From Paracoccus aminophilus JCM 7686 (GTDB taxonomy: Bacteria > Pseudomonadota > Alphaproteobacteria > Rhodobacterales > Rhodobacteraceae), in NCBI RefSeq assembly GCF_000444995.1, contig NC_022041.1:1834001-1898000 (forward strand): DNA of 64,000 nucleotides, read 5' to 3'. Shown here piece after piece: positions 38,898 through 55,461 of the stretch; within the stretch, counting starts at the first letter, position 1, and the number at the start of each line of letters is the position of its first letter. The translations under genes were made by a program, and so were the position numbers. The notes beneath the pieces are model-generated. The model was not told where the DNA came from and did no database searches. It was given only the letters and a program-made list of their open reading frames with translations.

Positions 38898-39965
38898 ATG
38901 AAGAAGATACTTGCATTCACCACCGCTCTGGCCAGTTTCTCGCTGGCTGCGCAAGCGGAAGAGATCAACGTCGTCTCCTGGGGCGGTGCGATTGCCGCCG
39001 CCCAGATGGAGGCCTGGCACCGCCCCTACATGGCCGAGACCGGGGTCAAGATCAATTCGATCGACGCCGACAACCCGGCCACGCCGATCAAGGCGCAGGT
39101 GGAATCGGGCAATGTCACCACCGATATTGCCGATGTCGAGCCTTCGGATCTGACCCGGCTGTGCGACGAGGGGCTGATCGAACCCCTGCCGATCGACGAG
39201 CTTGCCGACGGGATCGACGGCTCGAAAGCCCGCGCCGATTTCATCGAGGGCGGGCTTTATGACTGCGGCGTCGGCGTGCTGGTCTATTCGACCATGATCG
39301 CCTATCGCACCGATAAAGTGCCCGCGATGGCCTCTTCGGCGGATTTCTTCGACCTCGAAAAGATCCCGGGCAAGCGCGGGCTGCGCAAAGGCGCGAAATT
39401 CGCGCTGGAACTGGCGCTGATGGCCGATGGCGTGCCGCCCGCCGAGGTCTATGCAAAGCTGGCGACCCCGGAAGGCGTCGACCGGGCATTTGCCAAGCTC
39501 GATACGATCAAGAAGGACGTGATCTGGTGGGAGGCCGGGGCCCAGCCGCCGCAGCTTCTGGCCGATGGCGAGGTCGTCATGTCAACCGCCTATAACGGGC
39601 GGATCTTCAATGCAGTGATGGCCGACAAGAGCCCCTTCGCGATCCTGTGGGACAATCAGATCCTCGACTTCAACCTTTACGTCATCCCGAAAGGCGCGCC
39701 GAACAAGGATGCGGCCTGGACATATATCAAATGGATGAGCACAAGCCAGCATCAGGCGGATCTGGCCAAATTCATCAGCTACGGCCCGCCGCGGAAATCC
39801 GCAGCCCCGCTGATCGGGCTTTACAAGGACGGCAAGACCGAAATGGCGGAAAACCTGCCGACCAATCCCGAATATCTCAAGACGGCGCTGACCTCGAATG
39901 TCGAATTCTGGGCCGATCACGACATCGAGCTGACCCAGCGTTTCAACACCTGGCTTTCAAACTGA
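38898..39965 (+). CDS. PotD-type periplasmic binding protein, no transporter genes beside it
   Basis: 355 aa. Signal peptide KKILAFTTALASFSLAAQA, mature start EEINVVSWGGA. The domain includes DIADVEPSDLTRLCDEG, KIPGKRGLRKGAKFALEL and the family ending DIELTQRFNTWL. ATG 38898 (or 38895) is supported by AGGGAGA; the frame opens 7 codons earlier. It probably works with permease and ATPase subunits encoded elsewhere, or with the PotABC-type genes at 27.8-30.7 kb. Confidence 0.9.
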   Translation: MKKILAFTTALASFSLAAQAEEINVVSWGGAIAAAQMEAWHRPYMAETGVKINSIDADNPATPIKAQVESGNVTTDIADVEPSDLTRLCDEGLIEPLPIDELADGIDGSKARADFIEGGLYDCGVGVLVYSTMIAYRTDKVPAMASSADFFDLEKIPGKRGLRKGAKFALELALMADGVPPAEVYAKLATPEGVDRAFAKLDTIKKDVIWWEAGAQPPQLLADGEVVMSTAYNGRIFNAVMADKSPFAILWDNQILDFNLYVIPKGAPNKDAAWTYIKWMSTSQHQADLAKFISYGPPRKSAAPLIGLYKDGKTEMAENLPTNPEYLKTALTSNVEFWADHDIELTQRFNTWLSN

Positions 39966-40076: not shown

Positions 40077-41003
40077 TCACAAGATCAGCTTCTCCATCAG
40101 CCGCTTCATTTCGGCAGCGACCGTGAAGCTGTCATCCTGATGCTGGCGGCGCGCGAAGAGCTCGCCGCTCCACCAGCCGACATAGCCCGTCGCCTTGACC
40201 GCATCGACCCAGTCCTGCAGAGGCAACACGCCCTCTCCGGTCGCGACATTGCGCAGCGCGGCCTCATCGGGAAGCCCGCCCGCATGGGCCAGCGAGTCGC
40301 AGACATGGACGCCGTAGAGAATGTCCTTGTCGAGTTTCGCGATCCGCTCCGGCGTATCGCCCGAGACATAGGCATGCCAGAAATCGACCACCATGCGGAT
40401 ATTCGAGCGATCGGCGCGCGAAATCAGCTCGACCTGATCCGAAATCGTATTGAGCGGGCACCAACCCAAAGCCTCAAGATAGACCAGCAGCCCGCGCTCG
40501 GCAGCGAGATCGGCGAGCCGCGCCAGATTGCGCGCGGTGATCGCCATCTGCTCGGCGCGCAGGAGCCCCAAGACGCCCGTATAGCCCTCGACCGGCAGGC
40601 CTTGGCCGTGGCGCTGCACGGTGGCAAGACTGACCGGCCCGGTCAGGACCTGAACGCCCTTCGCCCCGGCAAGCTCGGCCAAGGCAAACAGCGCCTCGGC
40701 ATCGGCGATCAGGCTCGCCTCATCGGTGCCATGGCGCTCGATATCGAGCAGAAAGCCGATGCCCGGGATGGTGAAGGGGCGCAGCCGCGCGGCAAGTTCG
40801 GCCTCGGACCAGCCCGCCGCCAGAAAGGCACGCATCTTGGCCCCCGAGAGCTCGATCCCGTCGTAACCGAGTTCTTGCGCAAGCCGCAGATCCAGCGCCA
40901 TCGGCGCATCCTTGGCAATCAGCGAATGCAGCATGATCTGCTGGCGCCGAGCTTGCGGCTGGGAAGCATTGGGCTGGGGAGCATTGGGCTGGGGGGAATT
41001 CAT
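40077..41003 (-). CDS. Sugar phosphate isomerase/epimerase-like TIM-barrel protein
   Basis: 308 aa. The xylose-isomerase-like TIM barrel is seen in AQELGYDGIELSGAKM, LAELAGAKGVQVLTG, GLLVYLEALGW, IRMVVDFWHAYVSG and LYGVHVCDSLAHAG; the Glu, Asp and His in the strand ends are the usual metal ligands. AAGGAG lies 6 bp before the ATG at 41003, so the odd N-terminal tail (PQPNA repeated, positions 40950-40994) is translated. It faces the GMC gene at 41194 across paired three-box operators, which places it in the 40-57 kb regulon. Could also be an inosose dehydratase-like enzyme. Confidence 0.87.
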   Translation of the reverse strand: MNSPQPNAPQPNASQPQARRQQIMLHSLIAKDAPMALDLRLAQELGYDGIELSGAKMRAFLAAGWSEAELAARLRPFTIPGIGFLLDIERHGTDEASLIADAEALFALAELAGAKGVQVLTGPVSLATVQRHGQGLPVEGYTGVLGLLRAEQMAITARNLARLADLAAERGLLVYLEALGWCPLNTISDQVELISRADRSNIRMVVDFWHAYVSGDTPERIAKLDKDILYGVHVCDSLAHAGGLPDEAALRNVATGEGVLPLQDWVDAVKATGYVGWWSGELFARRQHQDDSFTVAAEMKRLMEKLIL

Positions 41004-41053: not shown

Positions 41054-41093
41054 CAATTGCGCATCCGCAAGCTTTCCCGCGCAGAGCGGCGCA
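41054..41093 (-). promoter_or_regulatory. Three-box operator, site 2
   Basis: Minus strand: TGCGCCG, N3, TGCGCGG, N13, TGCGCAATTG. Box spacing of 10 and 20 bp is the same as in the other four sites, although boxes 1 and 2 are weaker. Ends 50 bp before the TIM-barrel start codon. Confidence 0.6.
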
Positions 41094-41098
41094 GCCAG

Positions 41099-41138
41099 TG
41101 CGCCAATTTGCGTCAGGACTGTGAGGGTTGCGAAATTG
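41099..41138 (+). promoter_or_regulatory. Three-box operator, site 1
   Basis: TGCGCCA, N3, TGCGTCA, N13, TGCGAAATTG. Ends 55 bp before the GMC start codon at 41194. Lies back to back with site 2. Confidence 0.75.
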
Positions 41139-41193
41139 TCAGCCGCCCCTCTCGCGGCCTTAATCCGGGGCGACAACAGGACGGGAATGCATC

Positions 41194-42780
41194 ATGGAAC
41201 TGGCGGATTATGTGATCGTGGGCGGCGGCTCGACCGGCTGTGTGCTGGCCTCGCGGCTCTCGGAAGACGGCGATGCGCAGGTCATCTTGCTGGAAGAAGG
41301 CCCGCGCGACCGCAATCCCTACATCCATATTCCCGGTGCCTATTACAAAACCGCGCAAGGCCCGCTCCTCAAGCGCTTCCCTTGGGAGCCGACGGATGCG
41401 CAAAACCGCGCCGAGGCCCCGACCATGGTTCAGGCCAGCGTGCTTGGCGGCGGCTCTTCGGTCAATGCGATGATCTATATTCGCGGCAATCCCGACGATT
41501 ACGCCCAATGGGAGGCGCTTGGCGCGACCGGCTGGAGCTATCTCGATGTGTTGCCCTATTTCCGCAAGGCCGAGAACAACAACCGCTTTTGCAACGAGGT
41601 CCATGCGACGGGCGGGCCGCTTGGCGTCTCGGACATCGACCATATCCACCCGCTGACCCGCGCCTGGTTGCAGGCCTGCCAGCAAAAGGGGCTGCCGCTG
41701 AACCCGGATTTCAACTCGGGCGATCAGGCGGGCTGCGGGCTTTACCAGATCACCGCGCAAAACGGCCGCCGCAGCAGCGCGGCCGTGGCCTATCTCAACC
41801 CGGCGCGCAAACGCGAGAACCTCTCGATCCGCACCAAGGCGCGGGTCCTGCGCGTGCTGGTCGAGGGCGGCCGCGCCACCGGGGTCGAGGTCGTGCAGAA
41901 CGGCAAGACCTCGATCATCCGCGCGCGGCGCGAGGTGATCCTCTCAGCCGGGGCGATCAATACGCCGAAACTGCTGATGCTCTCGGGCATCGGCCCCGCC
42001 GCCGAGCTGGAGCGTCACGGCATCAAGGTGGTCCAAGACCTGCCCGGCGTGGGGCAGAACCTTCAGGATCACATCGAGATTTCCTTGGTTTATCAGCTCA
42101 ATGGGCCGCATAGCTACGACAAATACAAGAAGCTGCATTGGAAGGCTTTGGCCGGGCTCGACTATCTGCTGTTCAAGGGCGGACCGGCCTCGTCGAACCT
42201 GATCGAGGGCGGGGCTTTCTGGTGGGCCGATGCCGCCGAGACCCATCCCGATATCCAGTTCTTCATGGTCGTCGGCGCCGGGATCGAGGAAGGGGTCGAG
42301 GCCGTGCCGGGCGGCAATGGCTGCACGGTCAACCTTGGCCAAATCCGCCCGCGCTCGCGCGGAGAGGTCCGCCTGAACAGCGCCGATCCCGCCGATTTCC
42401 CGCGCGTGATCCCGAATTACTTCAAGGATCCCTATGATCTCGAGGCGATCACCGATGGCACGATGTTCGCGATGGAGGTGATGGAGCAGCCCGCGATTTC
42501 GCGCTACGTCGCGCGCCGCCACCTGCCCGAGGCCGGTCCTCTGACCCGCGATGCCGTGCGCCGCTTTTGCCAGACGACCGCCCATGCCGCGCTCCACCCT
42601 GCGGGAACCTGCCGCGCGGGCAGCGATGAGATGTCCGTGGTCGACCCCAAGCTGCGCCTGCACGGGATCGAGGGGCTGCGCGTCGCCGATGCCTCGATCA
42701 TGCCGACGCTGATTTCCGGAAATCCCAATGCGGTTTGCATGGTGATCGGCGAAAAGCTGGCCGATCTGATGCGCGCCTGA
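41194..42780 (+). CDS. GMC-family FAD oxidoreductase
   Basis: 528 aa. FAD fold GGGSTGCVLASRLS, signature 1 in VLGGGSSVNAMIYIRG, signature 2 near GAINTPKLLMLSGIGPA, and the active-site His/Asn pair in ALHPAGTCRAG and SGNPNAVCMV. No signal peptide. It resembles the GMC gene at 3765 more than the one at 55469. Its promoter carries the three-box operator, so it should be expressed together with the ABC transporter and HisD/ThDP genes. Probably oxidises a primary alcohol or polyol intermediate. Confidence 0.92.
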   Translation: MELADYVIVGGGSTGCVLASRLSEDGDAQVILLEEGPRDRNPYIHIPGAYYKTAQGPLLKRFPWEPTDAQNRAEAPTMVQASVLGGGSSVNAMIYIRGNPDDYAQWEALGATGWSYLDVLPYFRKAENNNRFCNEVHATGGPLGVSDIDHIHPLTRAWLQACQQKGLPLNPDFNSGDQAGCGLYQITAQNGRRSSAAVAYLNPARKRENLSIRTKARVLRVLVEGGRATGVEVVQNGKTSIIRARREVILSAGAINTPKLLMLSGIGPAAELERHGIKVVQDLPGVGQNLQDHIEISLVYQLNGPHSYDKYKKLHWKALAGLDYLLFKGGPASSNLIEGGAFWWADAAETHPDIQFFMVVGAGIEEGVEAVPGGNGCTVNLGQIRPRSRGEVRLNSADPADFPRVIPNYFKDPYDLEAITDGTMFAMEVMEQPAISRYVARRHLPEAGPLTRDAVRRFCQTTAHAALHPAGTCRAGSDEMSVVDPKLRLHGIEGLRVADASIMPTLISGNPNAVCMVIGEKLADLMRA

Positions 42781-42797
42781 GCGGGTTTCCGCGCCTT

Positions 42798-42837
42798 TGC
42801 GTCAGACTGCGTCAGGCGATAGAGAGGTGCGAAATCG
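42798..42837 (+). promoter_or_regulatory. Three-box operator, site 3
   Basis: TGCGTCA, N3, TGCGTCA, N13, TGCGAAATCG. Begins 17 bp after the GMC stop and ends 64 bp before the alpha/beta hydrolase start. Confidence 0.75.
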
Positions 42838-42901
42838 CAGGACCTCCCCCTGCCCGCTAGCCTTTCCTTGCGCGGTCTTTCGCGTAAGGAGAGGAGAACA
42901 T

Positions 42902-43780
42902 ATGCAAAAGATATTTCTGTCGCTCGGGCTGATCGGCATCGCCGCCAGCGCGGCCTTTGCCGGCGAAGAGCCTTTGACCATCGAGCGCGGCGACAAAAGG
43001 ATCGCCGCGATTTTGAACCTGCCCGACGGCGTTGAAAACCCGCCGGTCGTGCTGATGATGCACGGCTTTACCGGCAGCAAGAACGAATTCGACATGGCCG
43101 GGGGCAAGACCGGGCTCTTCACCTATATGGCGGGCCAATTGGCCGAGGCCGGGATCGCCTCACTTCGCATTGATTTCACCGGCTCGGGCGAAAGCTCGGG
43201 CGAATGGGCGAAGACCACCTTCACCGGCCAGATCGCGGATGCGGTCGATGCCTTCGATTTCCTTCAGACCCTGCCCAAGGTCGACGGCCATCGCGTCGGC
43301 ATCCTTGGCTATAGTCAGGGCGGCATGGTTGGCGCCCATCTCGCGGGCGCCCGTCCCGAGGCCAATGCGGTCGTGCTCTGGGCGCCGGTGACCAATCCGA
43401 TGGTGACCTATACGACGATCATGGGCGCGGAAAAGATCAAAGAAGGCCTTGCCGCCGCCGAGGATGCGCCGGTGACCGCCGATCTATCCTGGGGTGGGCA
43501 GACGACGCTCAATGGCGCGTTTTTCCATGAATTGCCGCTGGTTTCGGCGGCGGGCGCGATTGCGTCCTATCGCGGTCCCTTGCAGGTGATGGTCGGCGCG
43601 AAGGAAACCATCGTCGCGCCCCAGCCCACCGCCGGTAACCAGCTTCTGCGCTATCACGACGGGCCCGAGCGGCTGGTCTTGCTCGATTCCGATCACGATT
43701 TTGGCGCCGAGACCTCGCCCGATCTGGTCAAGACCGAGCTCGCGCCCAAAACCGTTGAATGGTTCAAGAGCAATCTCTGA
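42902..43780 (+). CDS. Secreted alpha/beta hydrolase
   Basis: 292 aa. Signal peptide 1-20 (SLGLIGIAASAAFAGEE) exports it to the periplasm. Serine nucleophile in GYSQGG, oxyanion loop HGFTGSKNEF, acid and His near HDF in LLDSDHDFGAE. Family members hydrolyse esters, here perhaps releasing a side group from the compound before uptake. ATG 42902 follows AAGGAGAGGAG; the open frame upstream is rejected because it runs across the operator. Own operator at 42798 makes it a separately controlled member of the regulon. Confidence 0.88.
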   Translation: MQKIFLSLGLIGIAASAAFAGEEPLTIERGDKRIAAILNLPDGVENPPVVLMMHGFTGSKNEFDMAGGKTGLFTYMAGQLAEAGIASLRIDFTGSGESSGEWAKTTFTGQIADAVDAFDFLQTLPKVDGHRVGILGYSQGGMVGAHLAGARPEANAVVLWAPVTNPMVTYTTIMGAEKIKEGLAAAEDAPVTADLSWGGQTTLNGAFFHELPLVSAAGAIASYRGPLQVMVGAKETIVAPQPTAGNQLLRYHDGPERLVLLDSDHDFGAETSPDLVKTELAPKTVEWFKSNL

Positions 43781-43786
43781 GCGCGC

Positions 43787-43820
43787 GGTCAGGCCCTTTC
43801 GGGGGCCTGACCTCTTTCTC
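43787..43820. terminator. Terminator between convergent hydrolase and GH3 genes
   Basis: GGTCAGGCCC pairs with GGGCCTGACC around a 6-nt loop and is followed by TCTTTCTCT on the plus strand. Confidence 0.75.
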
Positions 43821-44813
43821 TCAGCCCGCCAACGCGCGCACGCGCGCGGCGGCCTCGGCCAGACGTGCCGCCGAAAGCGTGCCGTCCTCGACCGCCGCCA
43901 CGATCCGGTCGCGAATGGCGGGCAGATGGTTCTCCGCCGACAAAAGCAGCAGATCCGCGCCCGCATTCAGCGCCTCGACCGCCGCTGTCGGCACGTCACG
44001 CTGACCGCGCAACGTCCCGATCGCGTCGAGATCGTCGCTGACGACCAGCCCGGTGAAGCCGAGATCGCGCAGGCTGGCGATGGTTTTCCCAGAGAGCGAG
44101 GAAGGCATGTCGGGATCGAGCGCCGGAACCAGCGCCGGGCCGGTCATCACCGCGCGTCCCCGCGCCTCGATTGCCGCACGGAAGGGCAAAAGTCCGCGCT
44201 CCAGCGCCGCTTTGTCATCGGTGACCGTCGCGATGTCGATGGCCGGATCGCCGTCAATGTCGTGATGGCCGGGATAGTGTTTCGCGACCGAAATGATCCC
44301 TGCCCCTTCGACGCCGCGGATATAGGCCGAGGTGATCCGCGCAACCTCGGCGGGATCGGCGCCAAGGTGACGGCCCTCGAGCCAGGGGTTCGCGCCGCTC
44401 ACCACATCGAGGACCGGCGAGAGAAACATCGAGACCCCGATCTCGCGCGCGGCTTGGGCGACCTCAGCCGACAGCGCCTCGATCTCGGCGTCGGGCATGC
44501 GGTGAAGCGTCGCGCGATCGGGGAATTCCGGGACCAGAGCGTGCAGCCGCGCAATGCCCGCAGGCTCTTGATCGAGCGCGATCAGCGCGCGCCCGGCCCG
44601 GCGGCGGACCTCGCCGATCAGCGCCTTGAGATCATCGGCGGTTTCCGTGGCGCGGCGCGTGTCGGACATGCGGCGCGCAAGATATTCCTCGCGGGTTTCG
44701 CCGATCAATAGCGCGACCCCGCCCTCGTCGAGATAGCGCGCAAGCGGCTCGGTCAGCGTCAGATCGCCAATCGCGGGCAGCAAAACCGCATAGGCATCGG
44801 TTGAAATCGTCAT
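43821..44813 (-). CDS. GH3-family glycosidase (beta-N-acetylhexosaminidase NagZ-like)
   Basis: 330 aa, N-terminal GH3 TIM barrel only. The NagZ signature KH-FPGHGD reads KHYPGHHD near residue 180, and the nucleophile Asp lies in LVVSDDLDAIG near 245. No signal peptide, so cytoplasmic. Start overlaps the lyase stop (ATGA), which makes it the third gene of an operon behind a three-box operator. That placement points to cleavage of an imported glycoside rather than to cell-wall recycling, although a housekeeping NagZ cannot be excluded. Confidence 0.85.
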   Translation of the reverse strand: MTISTDAYAVLLPAIGDLTLTEPLARYLDEGGVALLIGETREEYLARRMSDTRRATETADDLKALIGEVRRRAGRALIALDQEPAGIARLHALVPEFPDRATLHRMPDAEIEALSAEVAQAAREIGVSMFLSPVLDVVSGANPWLEGRHLGADPAEVARITSAYIRGVEGAGIISVAKHYPGHHDIDGDPAIDIATVTDDKAALERGLLPFRAAIEARGRAVMTGPALVPALDPDMPSSLSGKTIASLRDLGFTGLVVSDDLDAIGTLRGQRDVPTAAVEALNAGADLLLLSAENHLPAIRDRIVAAVEDGTLSAARLAEAAARVRALAG

Positions 44814-46189
44814 GTGAGAGGTCCTTTGATGAGATTGGCGCCAAAGCCGCGCTCTTGCAAAAGCGTGGCCAGATCCTCGCCCTCGGCGACGGCTTTGGCG
44901 ATTTCAGTGGCGGGCTCGGTGCCCAGAAGGGCGGCGAGCCCGGCAATCAGCGTCTCGGGCGCGTCCAGATTGGCCGCGCAAGCCGCAGGCGCGGCGGTGA
45001 TCCCCGCGACGCAGCGGGTCGCAAAGAGGCGCGCGGCCTGTTCGATCATGCCAAAGCTCGTCAGCAGACAATGCGCAATCAGCGGCTCGAAGGCATTGCG
45101 CTGCAACTGCCCGGCCTCGGCGGCCATGCCGACCGAGACATCCGCCCCCGCGACATGAAAGGCGACCTGATTGACCATTTCGGGAATGACCGGATTGGAT
45201 TTGCCCGGCACCAAAGGCGAGCCCGGCTGAACCGAAGGCAGCACGATCTCGCCAAAGCCGCCGCGCGGCCCGCTGGAGAGAAGCCGCAGGTCATTCGCAA
45301 TCTTGGCCAAGGTCACGGCAATCCCCCGCAGCATCGAAGAAAACTGCACGAGTTCGGCAGGGTTCCACGCCGCCGAGACCAGATTATCGGCCCGGCGCAG
45401 CGGCAACTCGGTCAGCCGCTGCAATTCGGCGATCACGGCCTCGGCGAAATCGGGCTGAGCGGTCAGCCCGGTCCCGACCATTGTCCCGCCGAGATTGAGC
45501 CCGGAAAGCCCCTGCGAGATCGGCCAGATCCGCGCCGCCTCGGCCCGCAGCGCGGCGGCAAAAGCGCCGAATTCTTCGCCCAAGGTCATCGGCACGGCGT
45601 CTTGCAGATGGGTGCGCCCAAGCTTGAGGATGCCGCCGAACTCCTGCGCCTTGCCGGCAAAAGCCCCCGCAAGCTCCAAGAGCGCGCGCTCTAGCTGCGG
45701 CGCGCCCTGCATCAGCGCGATGCGCAGCGCGGTGCTGTGGACATCGGTCGTCGATTGCGAGCGGTTGACGTCGCGGATCGGGTGGAGATGCTGATACTGG
45801 CCGCAGGCATGGCCCATGAGCTCGAGGCCCCGGTTCGCGATCACCTCATTGAGGTTCATATGCCCCGAGGTGCCGCCGCCGCCCTGAAAGACATCGACCA
45901 GCAGATGGGCCGCGTGCTGGCCCGCCAAAAGCTCGTCGCAGACCCGCCCGATCACCTCGGCCTTGCGCGCAGACAGCTTGCCCAGCCGCTGATTGGCCTG
46001 CGCCGCCGCCTTCTTGATCAGCGCCATCGCGTGGATCAGGGGCGCCAAGGTGCTGATGCGCACCCCCGAGACCGGGAAGTTCTCGAGCGCGCGCAACGTG
46101 CTGATCCCGTAAAGCGCCTCGCCCGGCAATCTGCGACTGCCGAGTTCATCGGTTTCGGTGCGCGTCCAGGAGGAGCCAGCGGAACTCAT
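44810..46189 (-). CDS. Aspartase/fumarase-superfamily lyase
   Basis: 459 aa, length of aspartase. N-terminal TETDELGSRRLPGEALYGIST, second signature TSGHMNLNEVIANR, and the mobile loop signature GSSxMPxKxN, here GSPLVPGKSNPV. The loop keeps the first Ser, Lys and Asn but has Pro and Val where Ser and Met are near-invariant, so a substrate other than aspartate is possible. Lies 6 bp after the uncharacterised gene and overlaps the GH3 gene by 4 bp. Confidence 0.85.
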   Translation of the reverse strand: MSSAGSSWTRTETDELGSRRLPGEALYGISTLRALENFPVSGVRISTLAPLIHAMALIKKAAAQANQRLGKLSARKAEVIGRVCDELLAGQHAAHLLVDVFQGGGGTSGHMNLNEVIANRGLELMGHACGQYQHLHPIRDVNRSQSTTDVHSTALRIALMQGAPQLERALLELAGAFAGKAQEFGGILKLGRTHLQDAVPMTLGEEFGAFAAALRAEAARIWPISQGLSGLNLGGTMVGTGLTAQPDFAEAVIAELQRLTELPLRRADNLVSAAWNPAELVQFSSMLRGIAVTLAKIANDLRLLSSGPRGGFGEIVLPSVQPGSPLVPGKSNPVIPEMVNQVAFHVAGADVSVGMAAEAGQLQRNAFEPLIAHCLLTSFGMIEQAARLFATRCVAGITAAPAACAANLDAPETLIAGLAALLGTEPATEIAKAVAEGEDLATLLQERGFGANLIKGPLT

Positions 46190-46195
46190 CAGCGC

Positions 46196-46891
46196 TTACG
46201 CCTTGGGATGCAGCTCGACCGCAAGCCAGACCGCATCGGTCTGCGCATAATAGCGGTGCCAGGGATAGGTCCACTGGTTCACCCCGGTGACGCGGCAGAA
46301 GGGATCATGCGATGCGCCGATCGGCATCACGACATCCTCGTAAAGCGTCGTCGCATCGCGCTCGGTGAATTTCTGCATCCGTCCGGTGCCGTGGATCTGG
46401 GTATGGACCTCGAGGAAGGGATGCTCGTTGTGGATGAAGCAATCGGTATCGCCGGGCGACCACCACAGATTCAGCTTGAGCTCGAATTCCTGCTCGGCCT
46501 CGGGGATCTTGCGCTCATTCGTGAAGACGAAAGGATCGGTCGTGACCGTGCCGATGCTGTCTTGCGCCGAGATGAACAGCGGCGTGTCGCGCGGAAAGCT
46601 CTTGATGCGATTGCCGAGCCAATCCCAGCCCCGGAACATGCAGCCGCCGAGATTGGTGGGCTGCGTCACCTTGATCAGCGCCGCGCGCTGGCCTTCACGG
46701 ATCACGCCGCCCTTGAGCCAGGTCGATTTCCATGCCGGAATGATCGCAGGATGATCGGCGCCGGTCAGCAGCGGCTCGGGGCTAAGATTGACGACCACCG
46801 CATCCTCGACCGAGAGGTCGCGGGGGTTTTCGACAAGCTGGGCAGTGATGAACTCATCGGCAAAGGCAAGATCGCGGATCTGGTTATACAT
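46196..46891 (-). CDS. Uncharacterised protein, possibly cupin-like
   Basis: 231 aa, no family recognised. The protein is hydrophilic and soluble with no signal peptide. A His/Glu-rich stretch (GDTDCFIHNEHPFLEVHTQIHG, residues about 160-180, quoted from two adjacent blocks) followed by VVMPIGASHDPF recalls metal-binding cupin strands. The frame is open to 46954, but that ATG lies within the operator at 46951-46990, so the ATG at 46891 is preferred. First gene of an operon with the aspartase-family lyase and GH3 enzyme; co-regulation ties it to the transporter and dehydrogenases. Confidence 0.65.
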   Translation of the reverse strand: MYNQIRDLAFADEFITAQLVENPRDLSVEDAVVVNLSPEPLLTGADHPAIIPAWKSTWLKGGVIREGQRAALIKVTQPTNLGGCMFRGWDWLGNRIKSFPRDTPLFISAQDSIGTVTTDPFVFTNERKIPEAEQEFELKLNLWWSPGDTDCFIHNEHPFLEVHTQIHGTGRMQKFTERDATTLYEDVVMPIGASHDPFCRVTGVNQWTYPWHRYYAQTDAVWLAVELHPKA

Positions 46892-46950
46892 GGCAGGCGG
46901 CCCGAGGCTGTTGGATTTCGCCCAAAGACACCATGGAACGCCTGCGCAAA

Positions 46951-46990
46951 CCATTGCGCGATATGTGCAAAACTGACGCAGACTGACGCG
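46951..46990 (-). promoter_or_regulatory. Three-box operator, site 4
   Basis: Minus strand: CGCGTCA, N3, TGCGTCA, N13, CGCGCAATGG. Ends 59 bp before the start of the uncharacterised gene. Confidence 0.7.
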
Positions 46991-47013
46991 GTTTTTGCCC
47001 CGCTGTGCAGGGC

Positions 47014-47853
47014 TCAGGCCGGTTTGATCATATCCGGGCTTTCGCCAAGATATTCGCGCGCCTCTCGGGGGATCGAGGGATCGTTCATGTCGAGCGTCGT
47101 CGTCGCCTGCAACTCGGCCCGGCTCAGAAGCCCCGGGCGGCGGTAATGCAGCACCGCCCGCGTCGAGAAGGGTTGGCGGAACATGGTCGCGGCAACCCCG
47201 CTGACGATGCCGAACATAAAGCGCTTCGAATTGCGCTGGACGCTGGAATAGATGCCGAAGGTGAATTCATTGCGCTGCACCGTCTCGAAGTCGATCGAGA
47301 AGACCCGATCATCAACCGGGAAGGTAAAGCCATGATATTTGAAGATATATTCGGTGCGCGACGGATCATCGTAGCTGGGAAAGCGCTCGATGTAATAATG
47401 GTTCAGGAAATCGCCGTTCTGGAAGATGCAAAAGGCCGAGCGAAGGATCTTGCGCGAATAGATCGAGGAATATTGGTAACGGTCATAGCAGCCGACATAA
47501 TCCCCGATGTCGGTCTTGCCGGACACGGCGACCGTATCGAGAAAGCGCACGACCTGCGGCGCGCGGCGCAGATGGTCCAGCACATCGAAGAAATTGCCGT
47601 CGACCAAGGCGCGGAAATGATCGTGCTCGGCAAAAAGCACCTCGGGGCTCAGGCCAAAGTAATTGGCGATAATGCGGATATTGCCCGACGACGGCATATG
47701 CCGCCCCGAGAGATATTTGTTGAACTGCTGCCGGTTGATCCCGACCTTGCGGCAGATCTGCGAGATCGAGCCCCGCCTTTCGCACAAAAGGCGCAGGTTG
47801 GCCGCAAAAGCGGCGGTGCGGTCCGAGGGGTCGGTTGGCTGAGTCATTCCCAA
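47014..47853 (-). CDS. XRE-family HTH regulator, likely master of the three-box regulon
   Basis: 279 aa. HTH at residues about 16-75 (GSISQICRKVGINRQQFNKYL, then SGRHMPSSGNI). About 200 residues of unrecognised, aromatic-rich sequence follow (DYVGCYDRYQYSSIYSRKIL, FMFGIVSGVAATMFRQ), presumably ligand-binding. It lies in the middle of the regulon, divergent from the ThDP gene. Operator site 5 starts 18 bp from its own start codon, which implies autoregulation. Repressor or activator cannot be decided. Confidence 0.88.
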   Translation of the reverse strand: MGMTQPTDPSDRTAAFAANLRLLCERRGSISQICRKVGINRQQFNKYLSGRHMPSSGNIRIIANYFGLSPEVLFAEHDHFRALVDGNFFDVLDHLRRAPQVVRFLDTVAVSGKTDIGDYVGCYDRYQYSSIYSRKILRSAFCIFQNGDFLNHYYIERFPSYDDPSRTEYIFKYHGFTFPVDDRVFSIDFETVQRNEFTFGIYSSVQRNSKRFMFGIVSGVAATMFRQPFSTRAVLHYRRPGLLSRAELQATTTLDMNDPSIPREAREYLGESPDMIKPA

Positions 47854-47870
47854 AATACCTTCGCAGTAAG

Positions 47871-47910
47871 TGCGTCAGTGTGCGTCACGAATAGCATGGA
47901 TGCGAAATTG
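47871..47910 (+). promoter_or_regulatory. Three-box operator, site 5
   Basis: TGCGTCA, N3, TGCGTCA, N13, TGCGAAATTG, then CG. The cleanest copy. Ends 78 bp before the ThDP gene start and lies against the start of the XRE gene. Confidence 0.8.
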
Positions 47911-47988: not shown

Positions 47989-49791
47989 ATGAAACTTACG
48001 GGTGGACAAGTCGTAGCGAAGGCGCTCAAGGATTATGGCGTCGAATATGTCGCAGGCGTGCCGGGCCACGGGATCTGGGCGCTGTTCGACGCCTTTCTGC
48101 AAGACGGTTCGGAAATTCCCTTCATTCAGGTGATGCACGAGCAAAGCGCCGTTCATATGGCGGATGGCTATTTCCGCGCCAGCGGCAAGCCAATGGCCTG
48201 CTCGACCTCGGTCGGCCCGGGTGCCGCGAATACGATCATCGGTCTCGCCACCGCTTACTGCGATTCGACCGCTGTCTTCTACGTTTCGGGCTCGCCCCAG
48301 ACCTATATGCAGGGCCACGGCACCATGCAGGAGCTCGAGCGTCAGCAGGACAATGCCTTCCCCCGCATCACCGAGCAGGTGACCAAACGCGCCTGGCAGG
48401 CCAGCTCGACTGCGGTTTTGCCGACGATCATGCACCGCGCCTTCAACGAGATGCTGACCGGCCGTCCGGGCCCGGTTCATGTCGAGGTGCCGATGGATGT
48501 GCAGGTTGACGCGGCCGAAGTCACCATCCATCCGCTGGAAAAGCGCCTGCCCGTCGGCGTGGCCTATCCCGATCCGAAGGCAATCCGCGCTGCGGCAGCC
48601 CTGCTCAAAGGCGCGAAACGCCCGGTCATCGTCGCCGGTGGTGGCGCGATCACCGCGAATGCCTCGAAAGAGCTGACCGCTTTGGCCGAGCGTCTGGGCG
48701 CGGCGGTCTCGATCACCTGGAACGGCAAGGGCGCGATTGCCGAGGACAATCCGCTGTTCATCGGCGCAGTCGGCCAGACCGGCACGACCTGCGGCAACCA
48801 GATCACCGCCTCGGCCGATGTCGTGATCTCGGTCGGTTGCCGCTTCACCGATTGGTCGGCCTCGTCCTATGCCAAAGGTGTGTCCTTCAGCTTCCCGCCC
48901 GCAAAACTCATCCATATCGACCTTGACCCGCGCGAGATCGGCAAGACCTATCCGACCGAGGTCGGCATCGTTTCGGATGCAAAGATCGCGCTGGAAGAGC
49001 TGCTCGCCGCGATTTCCGAGGCCGAGGGCGAGACCCTGCGCGCAGGCAATGCCGCCTTCCACGCCGATGTCGAAAAAGCGAAAGCCGAATGGCGCGCTTT
49101 GGTCGAGCCGCGCGAAACCAGCCGCGAGACCCCCTTCACCTCGCAGCGCCCGCTGGTCGCCTTGCGCAAGGTTCTGCCGCGCGACGGCATCGTCGTTGTC
49201 GGCTCGGGCAACACCCAAGGCGCGGTCAAGCAAAGCTTCCCGGTCTATGAGCCGCGCACGCATCTGACCTCGGGCTCTTACTCGCCGATGGGTTGGGCGG
49301 TTCCGGCAGCCATGGGCGCAAAGCTCGCCTGCCCCGAGAAGAAGGTCGTGGCGATCGTCGGCGACGGGGACTTCATGATGTCGCTGCCCGAAATGGGCAC
49401 GGCGGTGATGAACGGGATCAATGTGGTCTTTCTGGTCCTGAACAACCAAGGCTATATGTCGATCCGCGGTGGGATGCGCAAATTCATGGGCCGCCACATC
49501 GCCTCGGAATTCAACAATCATGCAGGCAATGGCGAGCCCTATTCCGCCGATATTGCAGCCTCGGCCCGCGCCTTTGGCCTTGCCGCCTGGAAGGTCGAAA
49601 AGGACGAGGATCTCGAAGCCGCGCTTCAGGCCGCTTTGGACACCGATGGGCCGACGCTGGTCGAGGTCATCGTGTCGCGCGATGCGGCTGGCCCCTTTGC
49701 GACCGGCTGGTGGGATTTCCCCTCGCCCGCCTATTACGAAAAAGAACAGGCAGCCTATGCCGAGATGCGCGCGAAAGAGCAGATGCTCTGA
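47989..49791 (+). CDS. Thiamine diphosphate-dependent enzyme, acetolactate synthase-like
   Basis: 600 aa. ThDP enzymes of this group join or cleave 2-oxo acids. The activating Glu lies in HEQSAVHMADGY near residue 50. The ThDP/Mg site is GDGDFMMSLPEM with NNQGY about 27 residues after GDG. The central domain reads RPVIVAGGGA. ATG 47989 has GCGGGGA upstream; the frame is open about 1 kb further but that part is antisense to the regulator. It is not a typical IlvB (no IlvN partner) and lacks the signature of sulfoacetaldehyde acetyltransferase. Context suggests a 2-oxo acid derived from the imported compound. Confidence 0.88.
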   Translation: MKLTGGQVVAKALKDYGVEYVAGVPGHGIWALFDAFLQDGSEIPFIQVMHEQSAVHMADGYFRASGKPMACSTSVGPGAANTIIGLATAYCDSTAVFYVSGSPQTYMQGHGTMQELERQQDNAFPRITEQVTKRAWQASSTAVLPTIMHRAFNEMLTGRPGPVHVEVPMDVQVDAAEVTIHPLEKRLPVGVAYPDPKAIRAAAALLKGAKRPVIVAGGGAITANASKELTALAERLGAAVSITWNGKGAIAEDNPLFIGAVGQTGTTCGNQITASADVVISVGCRFTDWSASSYAKGVSFSFPPAKLIHIDLDPREIGKTYPTEVGIVSDAKIALEELLAAISEAEGETLRAGNAAFHADVEKAKAEWRALVEPRETSRETPFTSQRPLVALRKVLPRDGIVVVGSGNTQGAVKQSFPVYEPRTHLTSGSYSPMGWAVPAAMGAKLACPEKKVVAIVGDGDFMMSLPEMGTAVMNGINVVFLVLNNQGYMSIRGGMRKFMGRHIASEFNNHAGNGEPYSADIAASARAFGLAAWKVEKDEDLEAALQAALDTDGPTLVEVIVSRDAAGPFATGWWDFPSPAYYEKEQAAYAEMRAKEQML

Positions 49792-49891: not shown

Positions 49892-51208
49892 ATGATCCGG
49901 CATGTGAAGACCCCGCGCCTTCAGCAAGGCGACCAAACCGATGCGACCGTCACCGACGCCGTCAAGAGCCTGCTCGCCCGAGTTGCCGAGGGCGGCGACA
50001 AAGCGGTGCGCGAACTCAGCATCCAGTTCGACGGGCTCGACCGCGAGAGCTACCGTCTGAGCGAGGCCGAAATCGCCGCCTGCATCAACGGTCTGAGCAA
50101 GCAAGAGCGCCACGACCTCGATTTCGCGCAAGAGCAGATCCGCAATTTCGCGCAAGCGCAGCGCGACACCATGCTTGACCTTGAAATCGAGACCCTGCCG
50201 GGCGTCATCCTTGGCCATAAGAATGTCCCGATCCAGAACGTCGGCTGCTATGTGCCGGGCGGGAAATATCCGCTGCTGGCCTCGGCTCATATGACGGTCT
50301 TGACCGCCAAGGTCGCGGGCTGCGAACGCGTCATCACCTGCGCGCCGCCCTTCAAGGGCAAGATCGCCGACAAGATCGTCGCGGCGCAGGCTTTGGCGGG
50401 CGCGGATGAGATCTATTGCCTTGGCGGCGTGCAGGCGATCGCGGCCATGGGCTATGGCACGGAAACGATTGCCCCGGTCGATATGCTGGCCGGTCCCGGC
50501 AATGCCTATGTCGCGGAAGCGAAACGGCTTCTCTTCGGCAAGATCGGCATCGACCTTTTCGCCGGTCCGACCGAGACGCTTGTCATCGCCGATGACAGCG
50601 TCGATGGCGAGATCTGCGCGACCGATCTGCTGGGTCAGGCCGAGCATGGCGTGAACTCGCCCGCCGTGATGATCACCAATTCGGAAAAGCTCGCGAAAGA
50701 CACGCTCGCACAGATCGAGCGGCTGCTCGCGATCCTGCCCACCGCCGAAATCGCCCGCAAATCTTGGGAAGATTACGGCGAGATCATCCTGTGCGACACG
50801 CTCGAGGAAATGGTGGCCGAGGGCGACCGCGTCGCCTCGGAACATGTGCAGGTGATGACCGCCGATCCGGATTATTTCCTGACCAATCTGACGAATTACG
50901 GCGCGCTTTTCCTTGGTGCACGCACCAATGTCGCCTTTGGCGACAAGGTGATTGGCACCAACCACACCCTGCCGACGCTGAAAGCCGCGCGCTATACCGG
51001 CGGCCTCTGGGTCGGCAAGTTCTTGAAAACCTGCACCTATCAGAAGATTTTGACCGATGAGGCCTCGGCACTGATCGGCGGCTATGCCTCGCGGCTCTGC
51101 CATATGGAAGGCTTCGTCGGCCATGCCGAACAGGCCAATATCCGCGTCCGCCGCTACGGCCAGCGCAACATCGCCTATGGCGCCGCGGTCGATGCCGTCG
51201 ATGCCTGA
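49892..51208 (+). CDS. HisD-family NAD-dependent alcohol dehydrogenase (not histidine biosynthesis)
   Basis: 438 aa. Histidinol-dehydrogenase fold with [30 protein letters not shown], zinc ligands Gln and His in [10 protein letters not shown], the catalytic Glu-His in ASEHVQ, TNHTLPT, and the final His in MEGFVGHAE. No other his gene is present, and relatives in similar operons, such as sulfopropanediol dehydrogenase HpsN, oxidise other diols in two steps to acids. GAGGTG precedes the ATG. It probably converts a terminal alcohol to a carboxylate before the ThDP enzyme; the order of steps is inferred. Confidence 0.88.
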
Positions 51209-51275: not shown

Positions 51276-52529
51276 ATGAAAACGCATGTCTCCGCGCTGA
51301 TCGTCAGCGCCCTCGCTTTGGCTGCGGCCTTGCCCGCGCAGGCCGAAACCAAGATCGAGGTTCTGCATCACTGGGTCTCGGAAAGCGAGGTTGCGGCCTT
51401 GAACACCGTGCGCGAGGCCTTGGCCGCCAAGGGCTATGGCTGGCAGGACAGCGCCGTCGGCGGCATGTCGGGTGGCAATATGCAGCAGGCGCTGCGCTCG
51501 CGGCTCGCCGCAGGCAATCCGCCCGGCGCGATGCAGTTTCTCGGCTGGGAAGGCATCGACTGGTCGGCCGAGGGCGTGATGCGCAACCTCGATGCGCTGG
51601 ATAAGGCCAACAACTGGCAGGCAACCATTCCGCCGCAGGTCCTGCCCTTCGTCAAGAATGGCGATGATCTGATCGCGGTGCCGATCAACATGCACCGCCA
51701 GAACTGGGTCTGGGCCAATAAGGCCGCTTTCGACAAGGCCGGGATCGCGCCGCCGAAGACCTGGGCCGAGCTGATCGCGGATGGCGAAAAGCTGAAAGCC
51801 GCCGGGATCATCCCTCTGGCGACCGGCGACGAGCCTTGGCAGATTCAGGTGATTTTCGACGCCTTGGCCTCGGATGTCGGCGGGCCGGACTTCTACCGCA
51901 AAGCCGTCGTCGAGCTTGATCCCGAGGCGCTCTCTTCGGATAAGATGAAGCAGGTCTTCGACACGTTGCGTCAGGTGCGCGGGCTGGTCGATGACGGCTA
52001 TAACGGCCGCGACTGGGCGGTGGCGACCGGCATGGTCATCGACGGTCAGGCCGCGATGCAGGTCATGGGCGATTGGGCCAAGGGCGAGTTTCTGGCCAAG
52101 GGTCTGAAGCCCGGCGTTGATTTCCTGTGCTTTGCCACGCCCTCCGAGACGCCCTCCTTCCAATTCGTGATCGACAGTTTCGGCATGTTCAAGGTCAAGG
52201 ACCCCGAGATCGCGAAGGCGCAGGACGCTTTGGCCGAGGTCGTGATGGACCCCAAGGTTCAGCATGATTTCAACCTGATCAAGGGCTCGATCCCGGCGCG
52301 CACCGATCTGCCGGTCGACGATTTCGACGATTGCGCGAAACAGGGCTTCAAGGACCGCGCGGTTGCCATCGAGAACGGCGCCATGCTTGGCGGAAGCGCG
52401 CATGGCTTTGCCGCCCAGCCGCAATTCGCCGCCGTCTTTGCCGATGTCGCGAGCCAGTTCTTCGTCAGCAACATGTCCTCGGAGGACGCGGTCAAGATGC
52501 TGGTCGATGGCATCGACAACGCGCGCTGA
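51276..52529 (+). CDS. Sugar-type ABC transporter periplasmic binding protein
   Basis: 417 aa. Signal peptide 1-23 (SALALAAALPAQAET). Mature domain of the carbohydrate family 1 binding proteins: EVLHHWVSESEVAALNTV, LGWEGIDWSAEG, VPINMHRQNWVWANK, MQVMGDWAKGEF, SIPARTDLPVD. Closest in style to glucose/mannose receptors such as GtsA. ATG 51276 has ACAGGGAAA upstream. Followed by a hairpin and then two permeases and an ATPase. The ligand should be a sugar, polyol or glycoside. Confidence 0.93.
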   Translation: MKTHVSALIVSALALAAALPAQAETKIEVLHHWVSESEVAALNTVREALAAKGYGWQDSAVGGMSGGNMQQALRSRLAAGNPPGAMQFLGWEGIDWSAEGVMRNLDALDKANNWQATIPPQVLPFVKNGDDLIAVPINMHRQNWVWANKAAFDKAGIAPPKTWAELIADGEKLKAAGIIPLATGDEPWQIQVIFDALASDVGGPDFYRKAVVELDPEALSSDKMKQVFDTLRQVRGLVDDGYNGRDWAVATGMVIDGQAAMQVMGDWAKGEFLAKGLKPGVDFLCFATPSETPSFQFVIDSFGMFKVKDPEIAKAQDALAEVVMDPKVQHDFNLIKGSIPARTDLPVDDFDDCAKQGFKDRAVAIENGAMLGGSAHGFAAQPQFAAVFADVASQFFVSNMSSEDAVKMLVDGIDNAR

Positions 52530-52540
52530 GCCTCCTCTCA

Positions 52541-52564
52541 CCTGCCGGGCATGGTCCCGGCAGG
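52541..52564 (+). repeat. Hairpin after sugar-binding-protein gene
   Basis: CCTGCCGGG and CCCGGCAGG pair around a 6-nt loop, 11 bp after the stop. It probably sets a higher level of binding protein than of permease. Confidence 0.6.
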
Positions 52565-52592
52565 CCTTCCCCGCTTTCGAAGGTGTTTCGTC

Positions 52593-53489
52593 ATGACCCG
52601 AAAGAAAACGCTCTCCGACCGGCTGGCCGATTGGCTGCCTCGGCTGGTTATGGCGCCAAGCCTCATCGCCATCCTTGTCGGGGTCTATCTTTTCATCGCT
52701 TGGACCGGCTGGATCTCGCTGTCCTCGTCGAAAATGGTCCCGCAATATGATTTCGTCGGGCTCGAGCAATATTACCGGCTTTGGGCCACCCCGCGCTGGC
52801 ATACGGCCGTGGCCAACCTCTTTATCTTCTCGGCGCTTTTTCTGCTTGTCACCATCGCGGTCGGGCTGATCATGGCGATCCTGCTGGACCAGAACATCCG
52901 GGCCGAGGGGGCGCTGCGCGCGATCTATCTTTACCCGATGGCGCTCTCGTTCATCGTCACCGGCACCGCCTGGAAATGGATCTTGAACCCGAACCTCGGC
53001 ATCCAGAAGGTCGTCAATGACCTCGGCTGGACGAGCTTCGTCTTCAACTGGATCACCCAGCCCGATTTCGCGATCTATACGATCGTGATCGCGGCGGTCT
53101 GGCAGAGCTCTGGTTTCGCCATGGCGATCTTTCTGGCCGGGCTGCGCGGCATCGACAATTCGGTGATCAAGGCCGCCCAGATCGAGGGCGCAGGCCTGCC
53201 GCGCATCTATCTCAGCATTATCGTGCCGATGCTGCGGCCTGCCTTCCTCTCGGTCATCGTTCTCTTGAGCTATATCTCGATCAAGAACTTCGACCTTGTT
53301 CTGGCCATGACCAATGGCGGTCCGGGCAGCGCGACCGAAGTGCCCTCGACCTTCATGTTCTCGTCGGTCTTCCGGCGCAACCAGATGGGTGTCGGCGCGG
53401 CCAGCGCGATGATGATGCTGATGACGGTCGCCGCGATCATCGTCCCCTATCTCTATTCCGAGCTGAAGGAGAGCCGCAATGGCCACTGA
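52593..53489 (+). CDS. Sugar ABC transporter permease 1 (MalF-like)
   Basis: 298 aa, six membrane helices (SLIAILVGVYLFIAWTGW, LFLLVTIAVGLIMAILL, AIYLYPMALSFIVTGTAW). The coupling loop reads VIKAAQIEGAGLPRIYLSI. ATG 52593 with GAAGGTG upstream; an earlier in-frame ATG at 52551 lies on the hairpin and is rejected. The stop lies inside the next gene (11-bp overlap). Confidence 0.92.
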   Translation: MTRKKTLSDRLADWLPRLVMAPSLIAILVGVYLFIAWTGWISLSSSKMVPQYDFVGLEQYYRLWATPRWHTAVANLFIFSALFLLVTIAVGLIMAILLDQNIRAEGALRAIYLYPMALSFIVTGTAWKWILNPNLGIQKVVNDLGWTSFVFNWITQPDFAIYTIVIAAVWQSSGFAMAIFLAGLRGIDNSVIKAAQIEGAGLPRIYLSIIVPMLRPAFLSVIVLLSYISIKNFDLVLAMTNGGPGSATEVPSTFMFSSVFRRNQMGVGAASAMMMLMTVAAIIVPYLYSELKESRNGH

Positions 53490-54357
53490 ATATGGCTCTG
53501 CCGCACGGTCGCGCCGGATCGGTCGCTTCGTCATCTATGCCAGCCTGACCGGCCTTGCCGCCTTCTATCTGATGCCGCTTTGGGTGATGATCACCACCTC
53601 GCTGAAGCCGCTGGATGAAATCTATGGCGGCTCCTTCATCGGTATGCCCAAGGTCCTGACCTTCGAGGCCTGGACCAAGGCCTGGAGCCAGGCCTGCGTC
53701 GGTACCGCCTGCACCGGGTTGAAGCCCTATTTCATCAACTCGCTGATCATGGTCATTCCGGCGGTGCTGCTCTCGACCGCCATCGGCGCGCTGAATGGCT
53801 ATGTACTGACGAAATGGCAATTCCGCGGCTCGAACCTCGTCTTCGGCCTGATCCTCTTTGGTTGCTTCCTGCCCTTCCAGGCGGTGATCCTGCCGATGGC
53901 GCAGGTGCTGGGCAAGCTCGGCCTTTCCGGCACGATCCCGGGGTTGGTGCTGGTCCATACCGTCTATGGCATCTGCTTCACGACGATGTTTTTCCGCAAT
54001 TACTTCGTCACCATCCCGAGCGAGCTGACCAAGGCCGCCCAGATCGACGGCGCGGGCTTCTTCCGCATCTTCTTCTCGATCATGCTGCCCGCCGCTTTGC
54101 CGATCATGGTCGTGTCCTGCATCTGGCAATTCACCCAGATCTGGAACGACTTTCTCTTCGGGGTCTCGTTCACGGCAGGCAGCTCGTCGCCGGTGACGGT
54201 CGCGCTCAACAATGTGGTGAACGTCACCATGGGGCGCAAACAATATAACGTCGACATGGCCGCCGCCATGATCGCCGCCCTTCCCACCCTTGTCGTCTAT
54301 GTCGTCGCGGGCCGGTATTTCGTCCGGGGTCTGACGGCTGGCGCAGTGAAAGGCTGA
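53479..54357 (+). CDS. Sugar ABC transporter permease 2 (MalG-like)
   Basis: 292 aa, six helices (IYASLTGLAAFYLMPLWVMI, LIFGC-type IPAVLLSTAIGALNGYVL). Coupling loop ELTKAAQIDGAGFFRIFFSI. Overlaps permease 1 by 11 bp and is followed 6 bp later by the ATPase gene. Confidence 0.92.
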   Translation: MATEYGSAARSRRIGRFVIYASLTGLAAFYLMPLWVMITTSLKPLDEIYGGSFIGMPKVLTFEAWTKAWSQACVGTACTGLKPYFINSLIMVIPAVLLSTAIGALNGYVLTKWQFRGSNLVFGLILFGCFLPFQAVILPMAQVLGKLGLSGTIPGLVLVHTVYGICFTTMFFRNYFVTIPSELTKAAQIDGAGFFRIFFSIMLPAALPIMVVSCIWQFTQIWNDFLFGVSFTAGSSSPVTVALNNVVNVTMGRKQYNVDMAAAMIAALPTLVVYVVAGRYFVRGLTAGAVKG

Positions 54358-54363
54358 CAGCTC

Positions 54364-55461
54364 ATGGCTACTTTGGAAATCGACCGCGTCCGCAAGGCTT
54401 ATGGCAGCATGGAGGTGCTCAAAGAGGTCAGCATCTCGATCGGCAGCGGGGACTTTCTCGTGCTGCTTGGCCCCTCGGGCTGCGGCAAGTCCACGCTTCT
54501 CAACATGATCGCGGGGCTCGAGGATATCTCGGGCGGAGAGATCCGCATCGACGGCGACACCGTCAATGATCTCTCGCCTAAGGATCGCGACATCGCGATG
54601 GTGTTCCAGTCCTATGCGCTTTACCCGACGATGACGGTGCGCCAGAACATCGAATTCGGCATGAAGATCCGCGGCGTGCCCCCGGCCGAGCGCAAGCGCG
54701 CCACCCAAGAAGCCGCCGAGCTCTTGCAGATGGCGCATCTTCTCGACCGCAAGCCCTCGCAGCTTTCGGGCGGGCAACGCCAGCGCGTGGCGATGGGGCG
54801 CGCTTTGGTGCGGCACCCGAAGCTCTTCCTCTTTGACGAGCCGCTTTCGAACCTCGACGCCAAGCTGCGCGTCGATATGCGCACGGAAATCAAGCGGCTG
54901 CATCAGCGCCTTGGCACGACGATCGTCTATGTCACCCATGACCAGATCGAGGCGATGACGCTCGCCACCCGGGTTGCGGTGATGAAGGACGGCATCGTCC
55001 AGCATCTCGACGAGCCGCAGGCGGTCTATGACCGCCCCGCCAATGTCTATGTCGCCCGCTTCGTCGGCTCGCCTGCGATGAACATCATCCCGGGTCGGCT
55101 GGAAGAGGGGCTCTCGGGTCCGGTTCTGGTGCTTGACCAGCCCGATGGCGGACGCTCGCGCATTGCGGGCGTCGCGATCAGCGAGGCGGCCCGCCAGACT
55201 TACGCCGGTCAGCCGGTCCTGGTCGGTATCCGTCCCGAGGGCTTTTCGGTCGAGGTCTCGAACCAGCCAAGCGTGCAGGCTGCGATCGAGGTGGTCGAGC
55301 CGACCGGCCCCGATACGCTGGCGAACTTCACCCTTGGCGGCGTCGAGGTCATCGCCCGCCTTGCCCCGCAGACCGTGCGCGCGGGGGAGGTCGTGCAATT
55401 GGGCGTTGAAACCGCGAAAGTGGTGCTCTTCGACCCGAAAACCGAACTCCGCATCGACTGA
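54364..55461 (+). CDS. Sugar ABC transporter ATPase (MalK/UgpC type)
   Basis: 365 aa. Walker A GPSGCGKST, signature LSGGQRQRVAMGRAL, Walker B LFLFDEPLSNLDAKL, switch YVTHDQIEA. The TOBE/OB regulatory tail from 240 (VGIRPEGFSVEVS) is complete. Seven bases separate its stop from the GMC gene, so it belongs to the same operon. Confidence 0.94.
   Translation: MATLEIDRVRKAYGSMEVLKEVSISIGSGDFLVLLGPSGCGKSTLLNMIAGLEDISGGEIRIDGDTVNDLSPKDRDIAMVFQSYALYPTMTVRQNIEFGMKIRGVPPAERKRATQEAAELLQMAHLLDRKPSQLSGGQRQRVAMGRALVRHPKLFLFDEPLSNLDAKLRVDMRTEIKRLHQRLGTTIVYVTHDQIEAMTLATRVAVMKDGIVQHLDEPQAVYDRPANVYVARFVGSPAMNIIPGRLEEGLSGPVLVLDQPDGGRSRIAGVAISEAARQTYAGQPVLVGIRPEGFSVEVSNQPSVQAAIEVVEPTGPDTLANFTLGGVEVIARLAPQTVRAGEVVQLGVETAKVVLFDPKTELRID

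Follow-up and report, generated by a model that had tools for sequence, protein, structure and literature searches.

Operators and genes at the locus

The stretch analysed here, hereafter the window, comprises 64 kb of Paracoccus aminophilus JCM 7686 (NC_022041.1, positions 1,834,001 to 1,898,000), and in it a gene cluster is interspersed with copies of a three-box operator and with the gene of an XRE-type regulator. A sequence-only reading had proposed that five promoters of this cluster share three boxes at rigid intervals of 10 and 20 bp and form a regulon of that regulator. This interpretation survived its computational tests, which support a regulon under an XRE-type protein whose operator, a phased series of direct repeats, reaches into the -35 region. 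In a pattern scan the motif was present at all five places in the 10/20 register, as listed below, with mismatches counted against the relaxed pattern TGCGNCA-N3-TGCGNCA-N13-TGCGNAATNG.

41054..41093, minus strand: operator before the TIM-barrel gene; 3 mismatches, box 1 (TGCGCCG) and box 2 (TGCGCGG) degenerate, box 3 (TGCGCAATTG) exact
41099..41138, plus strand: operator before the GMC oxidoreductase gene; 0 mismatches; candidate -35 TTGTCA, 17-bp spacer, -10 CTTAAT
42798..42837, plus strand: operator before the alpha/beta hydrolase gene; 0 mismatches; candidate -35 TCGCAG, 17-bp spacer, -10 TAGCCT
46951..46990, minus strand: operator before the U231, aspartase-like and GH3 genes; 2 mismatches; candidate -35 TGGTTT, 17-bp spacer, -10 TGTCTT
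47871..47910, plus strand: operator in the divergent region between the XRE gene and the thiamine diphosphate (ThDP) enzyme gene, facing the ThDP operon; 0 mismatches; candidate -35 TTGCGA, 17-bp spacer, -10 CAGCAT

The first two copies stand back to back across a 5-bp gap, at an offset of exactly 45 bp. The minus-strand member of this pair keeps the register and misses the consensus originally given: the stricter pattern of the sequence-only reading yielded four matches at up to three mismatches, this copy not among them, against 0.00 expected from 100 shuffles of the window. In three loci of relatives (L070, L071 and L073) the counterpart of this site, ahead of the related gene, has a higher score. 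Measured from the operator end, the start codons lie 50 (41003, minus strand), 55 (41194, plus), 64 (42902, plus), 59 (46891, minus) and 78 bp (47989, plus; counted by hand) downstream, in accordance with the range of 50-78 bp proposed earlier. One copy had also been assigned to the promoter of the XRE gene itself; the site does adjoin this gene, but it is directed at the ThDP operon, away from the XRE gene. The genes concerned are the following.

40077..41003, minus strand: xylose-isomerase-like TIM-barrel protein (family scan)
41194..42780, plus strand: GMC oxidoreductase, choline-dehydrogenase-like below the cut-off
42902..43780, plus strand: alpha/beta hydrolase with its own operator (family scan)
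43821..44813, minus strand: GH3-type enzyme, N-terminal domain only (family scan)
44810..46189, minus strand: lyase of the aspartase/fumarase superfamily (family scan)
46196..46891, minus strand: U231, without Pfam or NCBIfam match, aldos-2-ulose dehydratase being the best structural match of its model
47014..47847, minus strand: XRE-type regulator, 277 aa from ATG, with an N-terminal helix-turn-helix (HTH) and a predicted C-terminal all-beta domain
47989..49791, plus strand: ThDP-dependent enzyme of the acetolactate-synthase superfamily, below the cut-offs of the best 25 of the 60 families matched
49892..51208, plus strand: dehydrogenase of the HisD family, closer to HpsN than to HisD among solved structures and lacking His126 of HpsN
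51276..55461, plus strand: sugar-type ABC transporter (binding protein by family scan; two permeases and ATPase named from annotated relatives)
55469..57007, plus strand: second GMC oxidoreductase, named from an annotated relative 80% identical

Contrary to what would be expected of a sequence without relation to these genes, the motif is not scattered over the genome: the 4.87 Mb contain seven matches at up to three mismatches, five of them inside the window, and none to the reversed pattern. Both remaining sites carry a single mismatch. The first (C1:1829210-1829249) lies 149 bp ahead of an aldo/keto reductase gene, and the second (C1:2910175-2910214) about 370 bp ahead of a gene for a transporter of the major facilitator superfamily (MFS), an unusually long distance, with a 123-codon open frame nearer, at 130 bp. 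This remote site gains support from the fact that relatives of its transporter (53 and 51% identical) come after the TIM-barrel gene in the Paracoccus loci L070 and L073. With a 10/21 spacing the genome gave one match, at three mismatches. An XRE paralogue encoded elsewhere in the same genome (C1:2946242-2946979, minus strand in locus L160:6242-6979; 32% identical) has no site of at least 19/24 in the 13 kb fetched. To the left of the cluster, two solute-binding protein genes (30777-31847, minus strand, and 38877-39965, plus strand) have no operator at up to three mismatches; both proteins score above the SBP_bac_8 cut-off, and the second has only weak PotD/PotF matches.

Conservation of the operator and of the regulator

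In the XRE protein, HTH_31 (31.4 bits, cut-off 27) and HTH_3 (27.2 bits, cut-off 23) passed the Pfam scan, HTH_19 stayed under its cut-off (27.9 against 30.2), and no receiver domain was detected by the same scan. An INRQQFNKY stretch in the HTH is invariant across 61 aligned rows. The C-terminal part matched nothing in Pfam or NCBIfam; a predicted model of the whole protein (mean predicted local distance difference test score, pLDDT, 82.3; 61 sequences) consists of the HTH, linking helices and an all-beta domain (eight longer strands, one short), and a structure search with it returned no solved structure at E <=0.001, the weak beta-barrel matches not being used.

Distant matches to this protein are frequent: at E 0.001, 78 of the 198 family genomes have one. 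The orthologue of Paracoccus denitrificans, in L073, is 88% identical. Among 394 genomes of the family, the four with an XRE orthologue (E <=1e-40) were the same four that carry the operator at up to one mismatch, which was found in none of the other 390 nor with the reversed control; one species of the same genus lacks both. Random odds of such a coincidence are about 1 in 9.9e8 by hand count for four out of 394, a figure to be read with the genomes not being independent. Loci were also fetched with the XRE protein alone, the best 80 of 178 being retained, and a site of at least 20/24 occurred in 39 of the 39 loci with XRE identity of 36% or more and in nine of the 41 below it (reversed and shuffled controls 0/80 each). 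In a tree of 61 XRE sequences (60 of the 80 loci plus the window), the site is present in 41 of the 42 members of a clade with 100/100 support and in three of the 19 outside, some long-branch joins being reported. Related genes in Alpha-, Beta- and Gammaproteobacteria have the operator in front of them, as had been anticipated for orthologues; the boxes are conserved, the sequence between them scarcely.

Plasmids offered a further sample. Nine plasmid loci were picked from 145 records with a match, and a site with a score of 18 or more is present in seven of the eight with a close XRE protein; the ninth, L154, whose XRE protein is 30.9% identical, has no site. Plasmids from Paracoccus, Thalassospira, Shinella, Rhizobium and Ensifer carry the cluster by their annotation (L150, L151, L152, L153, L164, L165), and on the unannotated Sinorhizobium plasmid L163 only the XRE gene and operators were seen. 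Thalassospira groups with Paracoccus in the XRE tree, a placement that suggests transfer.

The boxes might instead belong to another regulator, with the XRE gene no more than linked to them. This is very improbable, since operator and orthologue coincide in four of 394 genomes, the operator follows one XRE clade despite changing gene order and transporters, and related half-sites at 10/10 spacing stand beside some distant XRE paralogues.

Spacing proved nearly as strict as had been claimed. With the first interval held at 10 bp, the window and loci L070-L110 gave a second interval of 20 bp at 98 sites, 21 bp at 15, 19 bp at a single site and none elsewhere between 14 and 27 bp; with the second held at 20 bp, the first was 10 bp at 98 sites, and lengths of 7-9 and 11-14 bp had zero to eight sites each. 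The less frequent 21-bp second interval of some relatives departs from the rigid 10/20 arrangement. Extending the count to L070-L149 at 21/24 or better gave 84 sites of 10/20, 14 of 10/21 and at most four of any other class, with no site in the reversed control. Odd classes appearing at 20/24 (among others 10/10 at 14 sites, 11/9 at 12, 9/11 at 11 and 13/17 at 11) arise where two complete boxes of a 10/20 site are joined by a chance third; tree labels such as 10.10 partly reflect this class, and exact TGCG rungs were scanned separately. By exact rungs, Burkholderiales loci account for ten of the 11 occurrences of 10/21. Six places in L117-L149 have 10/10 boxes by some distant XRE paralogues, with at most one match to the reversed control for any spacing, and these loci look, from their sequence, like separate regulons sharing the same box code. 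Such TGCG-type boxes stand ahead of XRE paralogues in L126, L130, L133, L136, L141 and L145, with a fourth rung 10 bp farther out in L126.

The 45-bp offset recurs in six of 11 back-to-back pairs, including 41054-/41099+ and one with a weak partner (14.3), and the other five are offset by 71-137 bp. Partly because of such pairs, inverted CGC rungs also recur ahead of box 1, at distances of 9 and 19 bp, in 22 of 84 sites each among those not at an XRE start.

Promoter register and proposed mode of action

Alignment of the sites revealed two conspicuous columns outside the motif, an A at position 62 and a T at position 66. They correspond to positions 2 and 6 of a -10 hexamer placed 17 bp past a hexamer that opens with TTG (motif positions 38-40). 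At this spacer both bases occur in 63 of 104 non-redundant sites (derived from 117), spacers of 12-16 and 18-23 bp give 1-12, and 1000 shuffles gave a mean of 5.3 and a maximum of 12. Both bases lie outside the motif used for site finding. Because the A and T concentrate at the 17-bp spacer, the TTG ending box 3 is, as far as sequence can tell, the -35 element, a point beyond the earlier claims. In the P. aminophilus genome all seven sites have, at this spacer, a hexamer with three to four of the six TATAAT bases. As in class II-type activation, the site thus overlaps the -35 and has the -10 at constant distance, and the weak core elements together with the phased upstream array suggest an activator.

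From the motif, its spacing, its conservation, its co-occurrence with the XRE gene and its promoter register, which rest on sequence, we infer binding, activation, autorepression, a ligand and a pathway as follows. Most likely, XRE subunits bind in head-to-tail order along a single face of the helix, at TGCG half-sites 0, 10 and 30 bp along. Box 3 would supply the -35 (TTG) of a sigma-70-type promoter with its -10 (consensus NANNNT) 17 bp on, and this register would bring the bound regulator up against RNA polymerase, where it would turn the promoter on. In the XRE/ThDP region the site is oriented towards the ThDP operon and starts 23 bp ahead of the XRE start codon, so that the regulator probably curbs its own expression; the same placement beside an XRE gene is seen at 24 of 108 non-redundant sites. 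The signal would most likely be an intermediate of the controlled pathway, held by the C-terminal beta domain, and the controlled enzymes point to a sugar- or polyol-like compound that would be taken up and oxidatively degraded by way of keto intermediates. We consider it quite probable that the XRE protein has its operator in these boxes and acts as an activator that overlaps the -35 and adjoins its own divergent promoter.

The same protein could act as a repressor, blocking RNA polymerase by covering the -35 until released by a pathway intermediate. The overlap of box 3 with the -35 suits repression equally, and many XRE proteins repress; boxes 1 and 2, however, are upstream of the -35 and no box lies over the -10, the -35 past its TTG and the -10 are both weak, as at activator-dependent promoters, and the constant register to the -10 is not required for repression, which we accordingly regard as unlikely.

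Several observations weigh against the XRE protein as activator at these boxes. The -10 hexamers of the P. aminophilus genome fit TATAAT at only three to four of six places. The score of 20/24 can be reached by two full boxes plus three chance matches in the third, and a stricter box-3 filter at 19/24 leaves the close locus L103 without a site. Plasmid locus L153, whose XRE protein is 58.8% identical, has degenerate sites only (best 14.9 against a threshold of 18), and L162 weak sites only (best 20.6). Base frequencies within the motif are inflated because the score matrix was refined on its own matches. Finally, 108 of 198 genomes, four of those with the orthologue, contain the relaxed pattern when three mismatches are allowed, against about 23 for the reversed control (counted from the table); weak copies can therefore not be called from sequence alone, and the expectation that the motif is lost together with the XRE gene, borne out at one mismatch (4/4 with, 0/390 without), does not hold at three. 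Loose matches in so many genomes could also point to a chance similarity or a repeat element instead of an operator, yet 0.00 matches are expected in the window, the reversed control is empty over the genome, the boxes are conserved with intervals that hardly are, and the 394-genome co-occurrence and the 80-locus site counts, with clean controls, contradict it, so that this explanation is hardly credible.

The proposed activator shares features with different known systems. At OmpR/PhoB-type promoters tandem direct repeats overlap the -35 and the regulator is a winged helix; alike are the half-sites in head-to-tail order at intervals of about one helix turn, the last of them over the -35, and the constant register to the -10, whereas the present protein has an XRE fold and lacks a detected receiver domain, and its operator skips one turn between boxes 2 and 3. 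Activators of the XRE/HTH_3 type, such as lambda CI at PRM or Rgg/ComR/PlcR, also have an XRE helix-turn-helix and adjoin the -35, but their operators are dyads, in contrast to the direct repeats and the predicted C-terminal beta fold, without Pfam or NCBIfam match, described here. The sequence-only reading knew of no operator of this form, and in a limited search of the open-access literature we likewise found no description of such an operator or gene set.

A wider reading, for and against which we see equal weight, is that this XRE clade has a promoter code of its own. Head-to-tail TGCG ladders in 10-bp rungs (10/20 and 10/21, in distant paralogues 10/10 or four rungs at 10/10/10) would end in a rung that is the -35, back-to-back operators would often be joined at the fixed 45-bp offset, one array driving two promoters, and an undescribed beta-fold sensor would govern an undescribed keto-sugar-type pathway moved with its operators between Alpha-, Beta- and Gammaproteobacteria.

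Target genes and the candidate pathway

An open frame of at least 80 codons starts 15-200 bp beyond 110 of the 117 sites. GMC enzymes (17), ThDP enzymes (16), HisD homologues (15) and U231 (14), named by comparison, are the largest groups of targets, and the same gene families recur as targets across three proteobacterial classes. Counted by eye, the 41 loci L070-L110 carry a HisD homologue in 33 cases and a ThDP homologue in 29.

The HisD homologue scores 443.5 bits with TIGR00069 (cut-off 243.8), a model that may not separate HpsN from HisD; compared with solved structures, it reaches 386.6 bits with HpsN and 277.9 with the best solved HisD. His126 of HpsN is replaced by Leu, and Glu318, His319, Asp352 and Lys353 are kept, by an alignment with a one-residue shift between chain and paper numbering that was inferred from Glu318/His319. 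Relatives of the protein encoded at 49892-51208 are annotated hisD, although this protein is nearer to HpsN and lacks the His in question; such genes may be misnamed.

The HpsN-like enzyme made dihydroxypropanesulfonate (DHPS) catabolism a candidate. HpsR, the regulator of the hps cluster for this compound, is in another family than XRE. According to PMC11382572, that cluster comprises HpsN, MFS uptake and HpsR, and His126 is the sulfonate-recognition mark of HpsN, a sulfopropanediol 3-dehydrogenase. Compared with that cluster, the present locus is alike in its HisD-family dehydrogenase, nearest to HpsN among solved structures, and in an MFS transporter in some relatives; it is unlike in the Leu at His126 and the XRE regulator, and no sulfolactate lyase or Xsc was above cut-off among the scanned proteins. 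With His126 replaced and the ThDP enzyme at 277.1 bits against the Xsc cut-off of 676.4, DHPS catabolism was dropped as the default.

U231 was modelled with a pLDDT of 92.7, and its best structural match is aldos-2-ulose dehydratase (E 2.1e-8, template modelling score 0.64 by query length, 16% identity), followed by cupin proteins; the predicted fold hints at keto-sugar chemistry, short of an assignment. Clusters of some relatives contain Gfo/Idh genes. Because of these genes, the ABC transporter, the isomerase-like TIM barrel and the U231 match, our best guess is a pathway that oxidizes a sugar- or polyol-like compound via keto intermediates.

These results provide a candidate regulator-operator pair across dozens of fetched loci, and a sequence rule strict enough for genome-wide prediction of regulon members, including lone sites distant from the cluster. 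They also describe an XRE-type protein that apparently uses direct repeats and -35 overlap, features known from other regulator folds. Moreover, a ThDP enzyme, an HpsN-like dehydrogenase, two GMC enzymes, a cupin-like protein, a lyase and a GH3 enzyme are tied into one likely pathway, whose substrate would therefore become findable through operator-driven expression.

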